The notes under the pieces were generated by a model that did not search any database, had not been told where the DNA came from, and was given only the letters and a program-made list of their open reading frames with translations. A stretch of DNA of 64,000 bases, from positions 4,000,001 to 4,064,000 of the forward strand of contig NZ_CP054840.1 in assembly GCF_013363755.1 (NCBI RefSeq), written 5' to 3'. The translations under genes were made by a program, and so were the position numbers. This DNA comes from Comamonas antarctica. Its GTDB lineage: Bacteria > Pseudomonadota > Gammaproteobacteria > Burkholderiales > Burkholderiaceae_C. Every line of letters starts with the position of its first letter. Position 1 is the first letter of the stretch. This document shows, piece after piece, positions 37,558 through 43,643 of the stretch.

Positions 37558-38520
37558 ATGACACCGCACGGCTTTCACCAGCTTGACCTCAATCTATTGC
37601 GCGTCTTTGACGAAGTCATGGCCGAGCGCAGCCTCACGCGCGCCGCGCACAAGCTGGCCATCACCCAGCCTGCGGTCAGCAATGCCATGCGGCGCCTGCG
37701 CGAAGCGCTCGATGACGAGTTGCTGGTACGCCACGGCCAGGGCGTGCAGCCCACGCCCCGGGCGCTGGCGCTGTGGCCCGCGGTGCGCGGCGCGCTGGCC
37801 CAGTTGCAGCAGACGCTGGCGCCTGATCCGTTTGATCCGGCCACGGCCAACCACACCTTCGTGCTGGCCATGGCCGATGCCACGGCCTCGACGCTGATCC
37901 CTGCGCTCCACACCATCCTGGAGCGCGAAGCGCCAGGCATCTCGCTGCGCGTGCTGCCGCTGACCACGCGCGATCCGCGCCAGCTGCTCGAAGACGGCGA
38001 GGCCGACATTGCCGTGGGCTACTTTCCCGCGGTGCTGGCCGACCTGACGGCACGCGAGCAGTCGGGCGATGTCGTCGGCTTTGAAAGCCGCCGCCTGTAT
38101 GCCAGCGCTTACATCTGCGTGATGCGCGAGGGCCATCCCCTGGCCCATGTACCGCTCACGCTCGACAACTACTGCGCCGCACGGCATATGCTGGTGAGCT
38201 TTTCCGGGCGCTCGTTCGGCTTCATCGACGAAGCCCTGGCCTCGCTGGGCCGCAAGCGCCAGGTGGTGCTCACGGTGAACCAGTTCTTCACCGCCGGGCG
38301 CGTGGTGGTGCAGTCCGACCTGCTCACCATCCTGCCGCGGCACTTCGTGCCCGTGACCGGCATGGCCGGGTCGCTGGCGCTGCGCGAGCTGCCGTTCCAT
38401 GTGCCGCCGGTGCATGTCGATGCGCTGTGGCGCCACCGCGGCCCGCAGGCCAATGCCGGCAACTGGCTGCTGCAGGCGCTGTTCCGTTCCGCCCAGACCA
38501 CTTTTCCCAGCGCGCCATGA
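37558..38520 (+). CDS. LysR-family regulator (NodD/LeuO-like branch)
   Basis: 320 residues. The N-terminus DLNLLRVFDEVMAERSLTRA and helix-turn-helix LAITQPAVSNAMRRLREAL place it in the branch with NodD, LeuO and NahR-like regulators, whose members often answer aromatic ligands. The effector domain looks complete (PLTLDNYCAARHMLVSFSG). No catabolic genes are adjacent; only the small unknown gene is divergent. Target unknown. Confidence 0.86.
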   Translation: MTPHGFHQLDLNLLRVFDEVMAERSLTRAAHKLAITQPAVSNAMRRLREALDDELLVRHGQGVQPTPRALALWPAVRGALAQLQQTLAPDPFDPATANHTFVLAMADATASTLIPALHTILEREAPGISLRVLPLTTRDPRQLLEDGEADIAVGYFPAVLADLTAREQSGDVVGFESRRLYASAYICVMREGHPLAHVPLTLDNYCAARHMLVSFSGRSFGFIDEALASLGRKRQVVLTVNQFFTAGRVVVQSDLLTILPRHFVPVTGMAGSLALRELPFHVPPVHVDALWRHRGPQANAGNWLLQALFRSAQTTFPSAP

Positions 38521-38584: not shown

Positions 38585-39487
38585 TCACTCCCCGTCCTGG
38601 TTCGCGTCCCGCAGCTGGCCGGCGACAAACTCGGCGAATGCCGCCGCAGCCACCGGCAGCACGCGCTCGCGCAGCGCCACCAGCACCAGCCGCCCGGCCG
38701 GCAGGCGGCGTTCGTCGATAGGGATGGCGACCACACCCGCCGAGGGCCCGGCCCCGATCTCGATCTGAAAGCTCACGCCGCCGGTTTCACGCGCATAGCC
38801 GCGCATCATTTCATAGGAGTTGGAGACCAGCGGCGGATGCGGCTGCGCCGCGGATTGCCCGAACCAGTCCTCCAGCACGCTGCGGCCTGAAAGGCTGCTG
38901 TCCGGCAGGGCAATGGGGTAATCGAGGCAGTCCTTGAGGCGTACGCTGGCGCGCCCGGCCAGCGGATGGTCCGGCGCGACCATCGCGCAGGTGCGCTGGC
39001 GCGCCTGCGCCAGCACCGCGAGGCCGCGCAGTTCCGGTGGATTGAAGATCAGGCCGAGGTCCGCCTCGAAATCGGTGACGGCGGCAACGGCGCGTTCGCG
39101 GTCGTGCACCTTGACGTCGAAGGCAATGCCCGGCCTGAGGGCCTGGAACGCGTGAATGGCGCGGGGCAGGAAGGCCGGCGCCAGCGCCTGGCTCGCGGCC
39201 AGCGTGACCTGGCCGCGGCGCACGCCGCCCAGGTCTTCGATCTGCGAGCGCACCTGCTCCAGATCGGCCTGGCGCCGGCGCGCATAGCCGAGGAACAGTT
39301 CCCCGGCCGCCGTCAGGCGCACGCCGCGCGGCAGCCGCTCGAAAAGCGGCGTGCCCAGTTCCTCTTCGAGGTCCTGGACACGGCGGTTGACGGCGGAGGA
39401 CGCGACATGCAGCTTCTCGGCGGCGGCACGGATGGAGCCGCTGCGGGCGACGGCGTCGATGTAATGCAGAAAGCGCAGGTGTTGCAT
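38585..39487 (-). CDS. atzR: LysR-family regulator of the cyanuric acid cluster (AtzR-like)
   Basis: 300 residues. N-terminus MQHLRFLHYIDAVARSGSIR with helix-turn-helix AAEKLHVASSAVNRRVQDLEEELG, then a full effector domain. It is divergent from atzD across 131 bases, just as AtzR of Pseudomonas sp. ADP is divergent from atzDEF. There AtzR activates the operon in response to cyanuric acid and nitrogen limitation, and its own gene has a sigma-54 promoter. A sigma-54-like element is found here right before this gene. Assignment rests on position and family; identity to AtzR was not computed. Confidence 0.8.
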   Translation of the reverse strand: MQHLRFLHYIDAVARSGSIRAAAEKLHVASSAVNRRVQDLEEELGTPLFERLPRGVRLTAAGELFLGYARRRQADLEQVRSQIEDLGGVRRGQVTLAASQALAPAFLPRAIHAFQALRPGIAFDVKVHDRERAVAAVTDFEADLGLIFNPPELRGLAVLAQARQRTCAMVAPDHPLAGRASVRLKDCLDYPIALPDSSLSGRSVLEDWFGQSAAQPHPPLVSNSYEMMRGYARETGGVSFQIEIGAGPSAGVVAIPIDERRLPAGRLVLVALRERVLPVAAAAFAEFVAGQLRDANQDGE

Positions 39488-39498
39488 GCCTTTGCCAT

Positions 39499-39514
39499 TG
39501 CAAGACCGATGCCA
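39499..39514 (-). promoter_or_regulatory. Sigma-54-like -24/-12 element facing atzR
   Basis: On the minus strand TGGCATCGGTCTTGCA has GG and GC exactly 10 bases apart, with the TGGCA and TTGCA blocks of the sigma-54 consensus. The expected transcription start falls at or within a base of the atzR ATG, implying a leaderless or near-leaderless message. Confidence 0.6.
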
Positions 39515-39548
39515 GAACGGCAGCGCACAGCGCGCGAAAAGGCCTCGG

Positions 39549-39562
39549 TCGAGAGCGCTCGA
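39549..39562. promoter_or_regulatory. Dyad in the atzR-atzD region, candidate AtzR site
   Basis: TCGAG-AGCG-CTCGA has perfect 5-bp arms and directly abuts the -24 block of the element facing atzD. Candidate regulator contact site only. Confidence 0.35.
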
Positions 39563-39578
39563 TGGCATGCCGCTTGCG
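39563..39578 (+). promoter_or_regulatory. Sigma-54-like -24/-12 element facing atzD
   Basis: TGGCATGCCGCTTGCG has GG-N10-GC spacing and TGGCA/TTGC blocks. The predicted start near 39589 leaves a leader of about 30 bases before the atzD ATG. Confidence 0.55.
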
Positions 39579-39618
39579 TGCCGGCATGGGCATACCTGTC
39601 CCAGAAAGACCCCCGCCT

Positions 39619-40710
39619 ATGCACCACATCGACGTCATCCGCATTCCCAGCCGCAGCCCGGGCGATACCTCCGGCCTCGAAGCACTGATCGCCTCGGGCC
39701 GGGTTGCCGCGCACGACATCGTGGCGGTGATGGGCAAGACCGAGGGCAACGGCTGCGTCAACGATTACACGCGCGAATACGCCACCAGCATGCTCGCGGC
39801 CTGCCTGGGCCGGCACCTCGACATGGCGCCTGCCGCGGTGGAAAAGCGCGTGGCCTTCGTCATGTCGGGCGGCACCGAAGGCGTGTTGTCGCCGCACCAT
39901 ACCGTGTTCACACGGCGCCCGGCGCAAGGGACGCCCGCTGTCGGCGCCAAGCGGCTGACCCTGGGCATTGCGTTCACGCGCGACTTCCTGCCCGAGGAAA
40001 TCGGCCGCCGGGCCCAGATCGAGGAAACCGCCGCGGCCGTGCAGCAGGCGATGCGCGATGCGGGCATCGCCAGCAGCGAAGACCTGCACTTCGTTCAGGT
40101 GAAGTGCCCGCTGCTGACGCCGGGCAGGATTGCCGCGGCGCGCGCGCGGGGCTGCGAGCCGGTCACGGCCGACACCTATGAATCGATGGGCTACTCGCGC
40201 GGCGCCTCCGCGCTGGGCATCGCGCTGGCGACCGGAGAAGCGGCCTTGCCGGACCTGGCCGACGCCGCCGTGCTGCACGACTGGAGCCTGTGCTCGGGCG
40301 TGGCTTCGGTGTCGGCCGGGATCGAGGTGGAGCACAACGTGGTCATCGCCCTCGGCATGAGCGCCGAGGCCACGAGCGAGCTGGCCATCGCCCATGAAGT
40401 GATGAACGACGCCATCGATGCGGCCGCCGTGCGGCGCACGCTCGAGACCCTGGGCCTGCACGGCGCCGAAGGACTGGAGCGGATCGTCAACGTCTTTTGC
40501 AAGGCGGAGGCCAGCCCCGACGGGCAGGTGCGCGGCATGCGCCACACCATGCTGGGCGACTCGGACATCCACTCGACCCGGCATGCGCGCGCCGTGACCG
40601 GCGCCGTCGTCGCCTCGGTGGTCGGCCACGGCATGGTCTACGTCTCGGGCGGTGCCGAGCACCAGGGTCCGGCCGGTGGCGGCCCGGTGGCCGTGATCGC
40701 GCGCGCCTGA
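39619..40710 (+). CDS. atzD: Cyanuric acid amidohydrolase
   Basis: 363 residues, exactly the length of AtzD, in the small ring-opening amidohydrolase family (AtzD/TrzD/barbiturase). The three-fold internal repeat is visible. Domain one has the Lys in VAVMGKTEGNG (residue 40) and Ser in FVMSGGTEGVL (residue 83); domain two has VKCPLLTP and SAGIEVEHN; domain three has VFCKAEASPDG and VSGGAEHQGPAGGGP. It hydrolyses cyanuric acid to 1-carboxybiuret. Near-identity of recalled AtzD segments such as HTVFTRRPA and DTYESMGYSRGASALGIALAT favours AtzD over barbiturase. First gene of atzD-G-E-H. Confidence 0.94.
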   Translation: MHHIDVIRIPSRSPGDTSGLEALIASGRVAAHDIVAVMGKTEGNGCVNDYTREYATSMLAACLGRHLDMAPAAVEKRVAFVMSGGTEGVLSPHHTVFTRRPAQGTPAVGAKRLTLGIAFTRDFLPEEIGRRAQIEETAAAVQQAMRDAGIASSEDLHFVQVKCPLLTPGRIAAARARGCEPVTADTYESMGYSRGASALGIALATGEAALPDLADAAVLHDWSLCSGVASVSAGIEVEHNVVIALGMSAEATSELAIAHEVMNDAIDAAAVRRTLETLGLHGAEGLERIVNVFCKAEASPDGQVRGMRHTMLGDSDIHSTRHARAVTGAVVASVVGHGMVYVSGGAEHQGPAGGGPVAVIARA

Positions 40711-40733
40711 GGCATCAACAAGGGGACACAGAC

Positions 40734-40946
40734 ATGGAAGAACAGGACATCCTCGCCTACGTCAAGGCCGGCGCGCCGGCGCTGGGCTTGCAGCTGGACG
40801 CGCAACGCGCGGCGGCAGTCGCCCAGCACTTCGGCCGCACCCTGGCCCTGGCGCGGCTGCTGGAACAGGCGCCTCTCGCGCCCGAACTGGAGCTGGCCGA
40901 GATCTACCGCGCCGCGCCGTTTCCCGGCGCAGAGGTGAGTGCATGA
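40734..40946 (+). CDS. atzG: AtzG-like small subunit of the AtzE amidase (DUF4089)
   Basis: 70 residues, all-helical and acidic: MEEQDILAYVKAGAPALGL at the start, LARLLEQAPLAPELELAEIY near the end. AtzG (68 residues) in Pseudomonas sp. ADP forms an obligate complex with AtzE and is related to GatC; HpxX of the oxalurate operon is another relative. Here it lies between atzD and atzE, 23 bases after the former and overlapping the latter by four bases (ATGA), matching the known gene order. Confidence 0.9.
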   Translation: MEEQDILAYVKAGAPALGLQLDAQRAAAVAQHFGRTLALARLLEQAPLAPELELAEIYRAAPFPGAEVSA

Positions 40947-42316
40947 ACTCGGCAACGCTACTGCGCGCGATCGCCCGCGGCGAGCGCAGCGCCCGCGAGA
41001 TCTGCGACGAGGCCCTGGCGTGCATCGAGGCCAGCGACGGCGCCGTCAATGCATTCACCGCAGTCACCGCGCAGCGCGCGCGCGCCGAGGCCGATGCGGT
41101 GGATGCACGCCGCGCGCGCGGCGAGACGCTGCCGCCGCTCGCCGGCCTGCCCTACGCCGTCAAGAACCTGTTCGACATCGAAGGCCTCACGACCCTGGCG
41201 GGGTCGCGCATCAACCAGGAACTGCCTGCGGCCCATGAGGACGCAGTGCTGGTGCAACGCCTGCGGGCCGCCGGCGCGGTGCTGGTCGGCGCGCTCAACA
41301 TGGACGAATACGCGTATGGTTTCACGACCGAGAACACGCACTACGGCGCCACCCGCAACCCGCACGACAGCGCGCGCATCGCGGGCGGCTCGTCGGGCGG
41401 TTCGGGCGCGGCGGTCGCAGCGCGCCAGGTACCGCTGACGCTGGGCTCCGACACCAACGGCTCGATCCGCGTGCCCGCATCGCTGTGCGGCACCTGGGGG
41501 CTCAAGCCCACCTTCGGCCGGCTGTCGCGGCGCGGCACCTATCCGTTCGTGCACAGCCTGGACCATCTCGGCCCGCTGGCAGACGGCGTGCACAGCCTGG
41601 CGCTGGCCTACGACGCGCTGCAGGGCCCCGACCCGCTGGACCCGGGCTGCCAGGCGCTGCGCGTGCAGGCCGCGGCGCCCGCGCTGCAGCAAGGCATTGG
41701 CGGCTTGCGCATCGGTGTGCTGGGCGGATATTTCCGCGAACACGCCGGCGCCCCGGCGCGCGCCGCCGTGGATCTTGCCGCACGCACGCTGGGCGCGCGG
41801 GGCGAGGTGCTGTGGCCGGATGCGGCGCTCGCGCGTGCCGCCGCCTTCATCGTCACCGCCAGCGAAGGCGGCAGCCTGCATCTGCATGACCTGCGCCAGC
41901 GCCCCCAGGATTTCGAGCCGCTGTCGGTGGACCGCTTCATCGCGGGCCTGCTGCAGCCCGCCGACTGGTATCTGCGCGCGCAGCGCTTTCGCCGCGTGTA
42001 CCGAGACCAGGTCAACGCGCTGTTCCAGGACTGGGATCTGCTGCTGGCTCCGGCCACGCCGGTCAGCGCGCCCGAGATCGGCAGCGAATGGATAGAGATC
42101 AACGGCAGCCGCCACCCCTGCCGCCCGGCCATGGGCCTGCTCACGCAGCCGATCTCGTTTGCCGGCTGCCCGGTGGTCGCGGCGCCGCTGTGGCCCGAAG
42201 GCACGGGCGGCATGCCGATCGGCGTGCAACTCATCGCCGCGCCGTGGAACGAAGCGCTTTGCCTGCGCGCCGCGCGCATGCTGGAAGAAGCGGGCACGGC
42301 CCGCATGGAGCCATGA
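40943..42316 (+). CDS. atzE: AtzE-type amidase, 1-carboxybiuret hydrolase catalytic subunit
   Basis: 457 residues, the length of AtzE. Amidase-signature triad: Lys in [13 protein letters not shown] (near residue 74), the cis-Ser in [13 protein letters not shown] (near 150) and the nucleophile Ser in [16 protein letters not shown] (near 174). Biochemistry on the ADP strain identifies AtzEG as 1-carboxybiuret hydrolase, giving 1,3-dicarboxyurea and ammonia. Overlaps atzG and atzH by four bases on each side, so all three are coupled. HpxY is a close relative, but the presence of atzD settles the pathway. Confidence 0.92.
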
Positions 42317-42711
42317 TGGAACAGATGCAGATCAATCTTCCCGAAGTCCTGGCCGAGGTGACGGCCGCGTTCGAGCGCTACGAGCAGGCGCTGACGTCCA
42401 ACGACGTGGCGGTGCTCGACGCGCTGTTCTGGCGCAGCCCGCACACGCTGCGCTATGGCGCGACCGAAAACCTCTATGGCCATGAAGCCATCGCCGGTTT
42501 CCGTGCGGCGCGGCCGGCGCACGGGCTGGCGCGGCAGCTGCTGCGCACCGTCATCACCACCTATGGAACGGACTGCGCCACGGCCAACGTCGAGTTCCGC
42601 CGCAGCGGCAGCGACCGCACCGGGCGCCAGAGCCAGACCTGGCTGCGCACGCCCGAAGGCTGGCGGGTGGTCGCGGCGCATGTGAGCCTGCTGGCGCCGC
42701 CGGCCGCCTGA
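42313..42711 (+). CDS. atzH: AtzH-like 1,3-dicarboxyurea decarboxylase (DUF3225, SnoaL-like)
   Basis: 132 residues (or 131 from the second Met). DUF3225/NTF2-like fold: [20 protein letters not shown] at the start, [19 protein letters not shown] near residue 45, and [19 protein letters not shown] at the end. AtzH in the ADP strain decarboxylates 1,3-dicarboxyurea to allophanate; HpxZ is the oxalurate-operon relative. The ATG overlaps the atzE stop. No atzF (allophanate hydrolase) follows; the next gene is an unrelated phosphoesterase. Confidence 0.9.
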
Positions 42712-42788
42712 GAGCCGGCGCGGCGGTTTGTTGGTAACCTGCGGATGTTCGGCGCACCATGCCGAAGCTCCCAGCCCACGACGCCGCA

Positions 42789-43643
42789 ATGAAAATCCAA
42801 CTGCTTTCCGACCTGCACCTCGAAGCCGATCCGCATTTCCAGGCCGAACCCGCGCCCGGCGCCGAGGTGCTGGTGCTGGCCGGCGACATCGGCTCCTATC
42901 AGCAAGGCGGCCAGCTCACCGAGCCGGATTTCGGCCTGGCGCGCTTCTCGCCGCTGCCGCAGTACGCCGGCTGGCCCTGCCCGGTGCTGTTCGTGCCCGG
43001 CAACCACGAGTACGACATGCAGGACTTCGACGCCGCGCATGCGCGCCTGCGCGCGGCCTGCGACCGGCTGGGCCTGATCTGGCTCGAGCGCGAAACCGCG
43101 GTGCTGAACGGCGTGCGCTTTGTCGGCACCACGCTCTGGACCGATTACGACGCGATTGCGCTGCAGGACCGCAAGGTGCAGGCCGGCGACCTGGGCGCGC
43201 TGCTGCGCCTGCGCGAAAAGGCGTTCCGCGCGGCCAATTTCTATCTGCGCAAGACCGGCGGCACGCGCCATGGCGAAGCCTTCCTGGCCGAGCCGATGCG
43301 CGAACAGGCATTGCTGTGCCAGCAGTGGCTGCAGCGGGCGCTGGACCAGCCATTCGACGGCCCGACGGTGGCCGTGACCCACTTTGCGCCCAGCCTGCGC
43401 AGCGCCGACCCACGCTACGGCCTGGTGCCGGGCACGGCGGGCTTCTGCAATGCGCTGGACGACTGGTTCGCCAAGGCACAGCTGTGGCTGCACGGCCATC
43501 TGCATGCGCCCAGCGACTACACCGTGCGTGGCGAAAATGCCGATGGAACGCCCTGGCAATGCCGCGTCGTGGCCAACCCGCTGGGCTATGCGCGCAAGAA
43601 CGAACAGGCTTATTTCCAGCCCCGCGCCTGCATCGACTTATGA
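42789..43643 (+). CDS. Calcineurin-like metallophosphoesterase
   Basis: 284 residues. The five metallophosphoesterase motifs are seen: LLSDLHLEAD (residues about 5-14), LVLAGDIGSYQ, FVPGNHEYD, VTHFAPS and WLHGHLHAP. The substrate cannot be inferred; this class hydrolyses phosphomono- or diesters including nucleotides. Start MKIQLLSDLH at 42789 is preferred over an upstream ATG at 42759 because the motif normally begins at residue 5-10. It lies 77 bases after atzH and probably is not part of that operon. Confidence 0.88.
   Translation: MKIQLLSDLHLEADPHFQAEPAPGAEVLVLAGDIGSYQQGGQLTEPDFGLARFSPLPQYAGWPCPVLFVPGNHEYDMQDFDAAHARLRAACDRLGLIWLERETAVLNGVRFVGTTLWTDYDAIALQDRKVQAGDLGALLRLREKAFRAANFYLRKTGGTRHGEAFLAEPMREQALLCQQWLQRALDQPFDGPTVAVTHFAPSLRSADPRYGLVPGTAGFCNALDDWFAKAQLWLHGHLHAPSDYTVRGENADGTPWQCRVVANPLGYARKNEQAYFQPRACIDL

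Follow-up and report, generated by a model that had tools for sequence, protein, structure and literature searches.

A chromosomal cyanuric acid gene cluster in Comamonas antarctica that lacks atzF and probably relies on a resident allophanate hydrolase

A 64,000-nucleotide stretch of the genome of Comamonas antarctica, which we call the window, carries a LysR-type regulator gene, atzR, that diverges from four genes, atzD, atzG, atzE, and atzH, predicted to take cyanuric acid to allophanate. The first-pass annotation placed these genes at 38585-42711, and they are present, in the same order and with lengths similar to those on plasmid pADP-1 of Pseudomonas sp. ADP (NC_004956.1, atzR / atzDGEHF). 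It also held that atzF, the allophanate hydrolase gene that comes last in a pADP-1-type operon, is missing here and that a phosphoesterase comes next. This is what we find: a metallophosphoesterase gene follows atzH. The cluster lies on a 4.2-Mb chromosome-sized contig (C1; C3, below, is a 176-kb contig), and the neighbors that we identified around it are pckG, a LysR-type gene, the phosphoesterase gene, and Usp. So, the housekeeping setting that had been described holds up, but the "native" status that went with it is weakened, as discussed below. (Genomes are labeled G in a numbering based on this genome, G000; AtzD loci are labeled L; and the protein rows of trees are labeled P.)

The open reading frame of atzR is longer than the gene in Table 1 (38585-39568 on the minus strand, 327 amino acids); the pADP-1-like start is at 39487. 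ATGA overlaps join atzG to atzE (40943-40946) and atzE to atzH (42313-42316). AtzD, AtzE, and AtzH exceed the cut-offs of their NCBIfam models (529.9 bits against an equivalog cut-off of 360, 714.5 bits against 425.75, and, for the AtzH/HpxZ model, 210.9 bits against 135). AtzG had no family-model match with a query of 74 amino acids that is out of register at its start, and we identify it because it sits between atzD and atzE and is 54% identical to pADP-1 AtzG. In global alignments, the identities to the pADP-1 proteins are 80.0% (AtzR), 79.1% (AtzD), 54.4% (AtzG), 76.6% (AtzE), and 75.0% (AtzH); BLASTP gives 80, 79, 77, and 74% for AtzR, AtzD, AtzE, and AtzH. The two systems share the divergent regulator, the D-G-E-H order, and similar lengths, at 54-80% protein identity.

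Table 1. Genes and promoter-region features of the atz locus, in window coordinates.
Feature	Position	Strand	Remarks
atzR, LysR-type regulator	38585-39487	-	300 amino acids from the start matching pADP-1 AtzR; LysR Pfam domains; 80.0% to pADP-1
atzD, cyanuric acid amidohydrolase (predicted)	39619-40710	+	363 amino acids; equivalog NF052395, 529.9 bits
atzG, small subunit (predicted)	40734-40946	+	70 amino acids; 54.4% to pADP-1 AtzG; between atzD and atzE
atzE, 1-carboxybiuret amidohydrolase (predicted)	40943-42316	+	457 amino acids; TIGR02715, 714.5 bits
atzH (DUF3225), putative 1,3-dicarboxyurea decarboxylase	42313-42711	+	132 amino acids; PF11533, 206.9 bits
sigma54-type -24/-12 motif TGGCAT-N5-TTGC towards atzR	39500-39514	-	
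sigma54-type -24/-12 motif TGGCAT-N5-TTGC towards atzD	39563-39577	+	
TGCC-N5-GGCA dyad, candidate AtzR site	39510-39522	+	overlaps the atzR-side sigma54 motif
LysR-type regulator, conserved flank left of the insertion	37558-38520	+	LysR domains
metallophosphoesterase, conserved flank right of the insertion	42759-43643	+	PF00149; start conserved in relatives is 42789

AtzD and 4bvq align along their full lengths (610 bits), and AtzD scores 433, 420, 414, and 322 bits against other cyanuric acid hydrolase chains, versus 272 bits against the barbiturase 5hwe. According to the available text of PMC4051656, cyanuric acid hydrolases are marked by three Ser-Lys dyads and by an arginine in place of a barbiturase glutamine. 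The dyads are kept in AtzD as K40/S83, K162/S232, and K295/S343 (from the 4nq3 alignment and motif positions), and the arginine is kept as R194 (from the same alignment). The first-pass annotation had raised grouping with barbiturases as a check. Although our tree has no labeled barbiturase, AtzD is nearer to the cyanuric acid hydrolases by score, and a barbiturase is ruled out by these scores and by Arg194. AtzD is thus, by score, a predicted cyanuric acid hydrolase and not a barbiturase. Trees against the plasmid-borne copies, which had also been suggested, put both AtzD and AtzE in the same clade as their pADP-1 counterparts. A quick-method AtzD tree of 139 rows places the window together with pADP-1, G009, and G131 in a 16-row set with a support of 96 in the Shimodaira-Hasegawa-like approximate likelihood ratio test (SH-aLRT). 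In the AtzE tree, the window falls with pADP-1 AtzE, whose branch is long, and with other D-linked AtzE proteins in a 19-row set (SH-aLRT 95).

The nearest solved structure to AtzE is 6c62 (813 bits), and K74, S150, and S174, which we take to be the amidase-family catalytic triad, are at the same positions as in pADP-1 AtzE. The marks by which we recognize a 1-carboxybiuret hydrolase (an AtzE family score, the amidase triad residues, and an adjoining AtzG) are all found. AtzH keeps 9 of the 9 pocket residues described in the available text of PMC6219798, including the Tyr22/Arg46 pair that we used as a test for this DUF3225 protein (the numbering is offset by 3, as judged from the agreement of all nine letters). 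As far as the sequence can tell, nothing in AtzD, AtzG, AtzE, or AtzH looks broken.

Could AtzG-AtzE-AtzH instead serve oxalurate or another ureide, like hpxXYZ, with AtzD as a bystander? AtzH does score as HpxZ. However, AtzE falls with pADP-1 AtzE and other D-linked AtzE proteins in the 19-row set (the D-linked AtzEs are not one clade overall); the cluster includes AtzR, AtzD, and a shared promoter region; and its neighbors are pckG, LysR, phosphoesterase, and Usp genes, not ggt or allantoate genes. We consider this explanation extremely unlikely. Clusters of the G-E-H type presumably go by the operon name hpx. As described in the available text of PMC6219798, hpxXYZ and ggt-atzG-atzE-atzH clusters share the G-E-H unit, but they lack AtzD and have another presumed substrate. 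The same text mentions clusters that have G-E-H but neither D nor F, names "Comamomonas" as one of the unique contexts, and reasons from the genes around G-E-H that this unit may be older than the cyanuric acid operon; a Comamonas atzDGEH cluster may already figure in its S3 Fig.

What, then, would consume allophanate? The first-pass annotation proposed a search for the enzyme elsewhere in the genome, and there is a full-length stand-alone allophanate hydrolase 113 kb from atzH (C1:4155447-4157138, 606 amino acids). It scores 758.8 bits with TIGR02713 (cut-off 511.05) and covers positions 2-563 of the model's 563. It keeps the residues that align to Lys91, Ser165, and Ser189 of pADP-1 AtzF, of which Lys91 and Ser165 presumably have catalytic roles. 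Ser189 is identified as the nucleophile in the available text of PMC6219798.

The annotation had expected allophanate to be passed to a urea amidolyase encoded elsewhere, which is wrong in form but right in spirit: there is a stand-alone hydrolase, along with two ureases, instead. No urea carboxylase scores over the TIGR02712 cut-off in G000, G009, or G131 (the best match in G000 has 551.5 bits, versus a cut-off of 1303.85, and covers positions 1-441 of 1201), and we reject a urea amidolyase as the last step on this ground. (Adjacent but separate open reading frames at C1:2425911-2428845 match parts 2-432, 443-744, 981-1045, and 1121-1200 of the urea carboxylase model, far below the cut-off; we presume that they might be a split carboxylase of the 5-oxoprolinase kind.) Two full matches to the urease alpha subunit (ureC), with 185.5 and 159.5 bits, lie at C1:1020985-1021350 and C3:78464-78826. 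We did not count a third match with 23.6 bits (cut-off 23), which spans positions 59-99 of 121. Strain ADP is described in the available text of PMC6219798 as unable to degrade urea or biuret, and leaks to these compounds as dead ends. In G000, with its two ureases, a leak to urea need not be a dead end.

We reject a route via biuret as well, as matches to biuret hydrolase are partial and at most 31% identical in G000, G009, G026, and G038, and none was found in G131. (The best match in G000 is 31% over residues 101-211 of 233. The query was the cysteine hydrolase that adjoins atzD on a Rhizobium leguminosarum plasmid, which we took as BiuH by its position.) The biuret route of R. leguminosarum shares the ring opening by cyanuric acid hydrolase, but it uses BiuH instead of AtzG-AtzE-AtzH, and G000 has no close BiuH.

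The allophanate hydrolase belongs to a cassette that is inherited separately from the atz cluster and is more widespread. Allophanate hydrolase scores over its cut-off in 15 of the 53 genomes of the genus, and 12 of these 15 share one cassette (G000 as the reference, 10 of 13 others tested together, and G012), which combines an NMT1-type ABC transporter and an alpha/beta hydrolase with a GntR-type regulator that lies beside the allophanate hydrolase. (The cassette is found at L010:3190-9256, which is about 4151190-4157256 of G000:C1, and also in G131.) In the other three genomes (G007, G034, and G051), the allophanate hydrolase adjoins a urea carboxylase; three of the 17 genomes tested have a urea carboxylase that scores over its cut-off. 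The allophanate hydrolases branch as the species do, with G000 + G009 supported by an SH-aLRT of 99 and their set with G026 and G038 also by 99. The cassette is kept in genomes without AtzD. The same arrangement, with atzF missing from the cluster and an allophanate hydrolase elsewhere in the genome, is found in G009 and in G131, a genome matching Comamonas serinivorans that has the third such atzR/atzDGEH cluster.

The ureases raise the possibility that this hydrolase is irrelevant: allophanate or 1,3-dicarboxyurea would decay to urea, the two ureases would finish the job, and the pathway would run without any AtzF. Besides the two ureC genes, this is favored by the spontaneous decay of both intermediates to urea (described in the available text of PMC6219798) and by the conservation of the cassette in genomes without AtzD, so that it serves something else. 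Still, we think it unlikely. AtzH is kept, with all nine of its pocket residues, and this is easiest to understand if an enzyme consumes the AtzH product. Also, all three of the genomes that we found with an F-less cluster have the hydrolase, and sigma54 motifs precede both units.

These motifs are of the -24/-12 type. The region between atzR and atzD holds two of them, in divergent orientation, along with the candidate AtzR site (Table 1). The dyad is kept in an alignment of five intergenic regions, including that of pADP-1, although its pattern alone is not rare (3 found versus 3.4 expected). The divergent sigma54 pair is present, at an offset of exactly 63 nucleotides, in 7 of 7 loci with a close AtzR (at least 68% identity) near atzD. 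Three of them (the window, G009, and G131) are on chromosome-sized contigs, and four (L015, L016, L017, and L018) are on contigs from metagenome-assembled genomes (MAGs). pADP-1 shares the dyad and the atzR-side motif with the window, but on the atzD side the best match at the equivalent place has 4 mismatches, so that the motif is not recognizable there.

In the hydrolase cassette, a sigma54-type motif before the transporter has no mismatches in 10 of 11 genomes and one in the other. A second lies 37-43 nucleotides before the hydrolase, with 1 mismatch in four genomes, 2 in six, and 3 in one. These 11 genomes are related, not independent. Among 3000 random 320-bp windows of the same loci, a control that contains real sites, 71 had a match with no more than 1 mismatch, and 169 had one with no more than 2. 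The available text of PMC6834077 states that both operons of pADP-1 depend on sigma54 and are turned on by nitrogen starvation, which fits joint control but is at odds with the missing motif on the atzD side of pADP-1. As both units carry sigma54-type motifs, the sequences suggest a joint nitrogen control of the atz cluster and the hydrolase cassette, which seems reasonable.

We propose that the window holds a chromosomal cyanuric acid module whose last step is performed in trans by the resident hydrolase, with both under joint sigma54 control. We consider this likely. The genes, their key residues, the genome content, the insertion site, and the motifs can be observed directly; for the enzyme activities, the regulation, and the physiology, we draw on pADP-1 and on knowledge of the families. 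On this basis, AtzD would open cyanuric acid to 1-carboxybiuret, AtzG-AtzE would remove one amide to give 1,3-dicarboxyurea, and AtzH would decarboxylate that to allophanate, which the stand-alone hydrolase, 113 kb away, would break down. The cluster and the cassette would probably be switched on together under nitrogen starvation because of their sigma54-type promoter motifs, and AtzR would add a response to cyanuric acid. Any allophanate that decays to urea could be rescued by urease.

Several observations weigh against this proposal. First, we identified no transporter gene beside atzR, the window lacks a match to the BMP-family binding protein of pADP-1, and the BMP-family relatives of that protein elsewhere in G000, at 1.07 Mb, are only 48-52% identical to it. 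Second, the resident hydrolase is only 45-49% identical to pADP-1 AtzF and does not group with it (P = 6e-120 in the approximately unbiased test, p-AU). Third, the cassette of this hydrolase must have another source of allophanate. Fourth, single sigma54 motifs are within chance (3 in the window versus 1.66 expected, and 20 of 100 shuffles had as many), and therefore only the conserved arrangement counts; the pair is absent from two divergent loci, L043 and L086, whose AtzR proteins are 48% and 41% identical.

As for uptake, three BMP-family binding proteins (48-52% identical to that of pADP-1) lie close together at C1:1071355-1077488 and might take up purines or triazines; we did not take them as orthologues of the pADP-type transporter. 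We also rejected the genes beyond atzR in L016-L018 as candidates for it (30% identity in L016 and L017 and no match in L018). In L015, a BMP-family match to pADP-1 (33%) lies downstream of atzH.

The cluster is not core to the genus. It forms a compact insertion in the chromosome, and the two genes that flank it overlap each other in the nearest relatives. AtzD is found in just 2 of the 53 genomes of the genus (and in 18 of 399 in the family sample), and the flanking phosphoesterase has a match in 47 of the 53, two of them weak (38-40% identity). For a comparison of the flanking locus, we used G009 and 20 of the other 45 genomes of the genus that have a phosphoesterase match. G009 has the whole cluster at the same site as the window. 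In 20 of the 20 others, the flanking LysR gene is beside the phosphoesterase gene without atz genes. (In G004 and G011, about 0.8 kb of other sequence lies between the two.) In the nearest relatives, G005, G026, and G038, the LysR stop and the phosphoesterase start share an ATGA. This ATGA also ends the flanking LysR gene of the window, where the atz insert comes after it. These counts weaken the earlier claim that the cluster is native.

The simplest account is one gain in the ancestor of G000 and G009, which are sisters in a tree of four flanking proteins (ultrafast bootstrap 92; 22 genomes, not all of which have all four proteins). Since then the cluster has probably been inherited, because the atz genes of G000 and G009 are 80-89% identical, within the range of the flanking genes (76-98%). 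Alternatively, the cluster could be truly native, that is, ancestral in the genus and lost from most members. The shared site in G009, with identities in the range of the flanks, would fit this, as would the absence of a compositional mark (the G+C content of the cluster is 71%, versus 68% for the window, and its G+C content at third codon positions is 0.88-0.90, versus 0.86-0.92). But with AtzD so rare in the genus, with the site free of atz genes in all 20 of the other genomes examined, with flanking genes that overlap by ATGA in the three nearest relatives, and with one gain being enough for the sisters G000 and G009, we find it quite unlikely. We saw no recognizable transposon end, and no long repeat pair bounds the cluster among the matches listed (the best 20 of 34 direct and 25 of 56 inverted repeat families). 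The two junctions share a short ATGAAG/ATGAAA, which is missing on the left in G009, so we do not use it as evidence.

The annotation also suggested that the window cluster is a source from which plasmid clusters were recruited. This too is weakened, and the cluster is by its sequence a sister, not the donor, of the plasmid operon, because it is no closer to the plasmid than other copies are. At the DNA level, pADP-1 and three more plasmid records align with 90% of the cluster stretch at 73.0% identity; these are the 4 of 221 matching plasmid records that hold most of it, and all four have the same 73.0%. AtzD is 80.4% identical to pADP-1 AtzD in L015 and 79.6% in G009, compared to 79.1% in the window, and the closest AtzD that we saw is P0016 (85%). 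The contig of P0016 has the same size as that of P0242, the closest full-length AtzF to that of pADP-1 (77%). Linkage of AtzD and AtzE for rows like these was judged only by equal longest-contig size, which is indirect, and other rows may still be linked. By this measure, the G-E-H-linked AtzDs are not one clade (7 changes) and neither are the D-linked AtzEs (5 changes); therefore, these trees do not demonstrate that the D-G-E-H linkage arose only once.

The opposite direction, with the chromosomal clusters derived by loss of atzF from plasmid operons like that of pADP-1, seems very unlikely. In its favor, plasmid records from Pseudomonas and Agrobacterium carry the operon, and AtzD and AtzE of pADP-1 are in the same clades as those of the window. 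Yet the four pADP-type records are all at 73.0% while the AtzDs of G000, G009, G131, and L015 are diverse (77-88% identical to one another), pADP-1 AtzF groups neither with L015 AtzF (p-AU 1.5e-5) nor with the resident hydrolases, and the divergent sigma54 pair is complete in the seven close-AtzR loci and only half kept in pADP-1. The window cluster also differs from that of pADP-1 in being chromosomal, in having no atzF in the operon and no transporter gene identified beside atzR, and in its atzD-side sigma54 motif.

Pairwise identities among G000, G009, G131, L015, and pADP-1 range over 75-89% for the R, D, E, and H proteins and over 48-80% for G. The C. serinivorans cluster is at another genomic site, has its hydrolase cassette in trans, and is 80-84% identical to the window for D, E, H, and R and 71% for G. 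In L015, from an Aquabacterium MAG (NZ_CANBCC010000090.1), the R, D, G, E, and H proteins are 67-82% identical to those of the window and the divergent sigma54 pair is shared, but it has an atzF between D and G. Among the best 80 of 200 AtzD loci from public genomes, a sample in which records near the window may be left out and many loci are cut by contig ends, L015 is the only one with G-E-H directly with D. L024, L041, and L056 have a 56-60% AtzE relative several kb from atzD, and L044 likewise has a 67% AtzH relative. (In two Polaromonas loci without G-E-H beside atzD, an extra gene for a 336-amino-acid protein lies between atzR and atzD, at L016:8986-9996 and L017:8987-9997.)

On the other hand, pADP-1, L015, and G000 have allophanate hydrolases that are just 49-53% identical and are in different places. 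A group of pADP-1 AtzF with L015 AtzF is rejected (p-AU 1.5e-5), as is a group of pADP-1 AtzF with nine resident cassette hydrolases (p-AU 6e-120). A group of L015 AtzF with the resident hydrolases is not rejected (p-AU 0.29), so we dropped the idea of three separate sources and claim two lineages. (The tree sample is mostly relatives of pADP-1 AtzF, the nearest kin of L015 AtzF are left out of it, and the L015 branch is long, at 0.88.) Because R, D, E, and H are so similar while the hydrolases differ in sequence and in place, R/D-G-E-H looks like a stable unit, with allophanate hydrolase apparently supplied from at least two lineages.

As a tentative history, to which we would give slightly less than even odds, the evolving unit would be the atzR/atzDGEH module, and not the five-gene operon of the plasmid. 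Inserting into genomes that own a sigma54-controlled hydrolase cassette would complete the pathway at once. In settings that do not guarantee a host enzyme, such as broad-host plasmids, atzF would have been gained independently from different lineages, downstream of H in pADP-1 and between D and G in the Aquabacterium contig. The loss of the atzD-side sigma54 motif in the plasmid would reflect rewired control.

L015 (L015:354-13803) is also a second cyanuric acid cluster in its own right, atzR / D-F-G-E-H. It is flanked by two TRZ/ATZ-type amidohydrolases (with best matches below curated cut-offs) and an ISL3 transposase, and it looks like a mobile s-triazine island. None of the PLSDB plasmids matches the island in full. 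The L015 AtzE is the same protein as P0138, which is named Pseudomonas aeruginosa and occurs in 191 contigs of up to 7.05 Mb.

In summary, the window holds a well-defined variant of a known pathway: the genome has the last enzyme, and the cluster itself is inserted and stands as a sister to the plasmid operon. Screens for the full five-gene operon would miss organisms like this one that are likely to mineralize cyanuric acid. And as these copies of R/D-G-E-H sit at a defined insertion site, share their promoter layout, and have their last enzyme supplied by the host, they make a history in which the module came first and atzF later testable.

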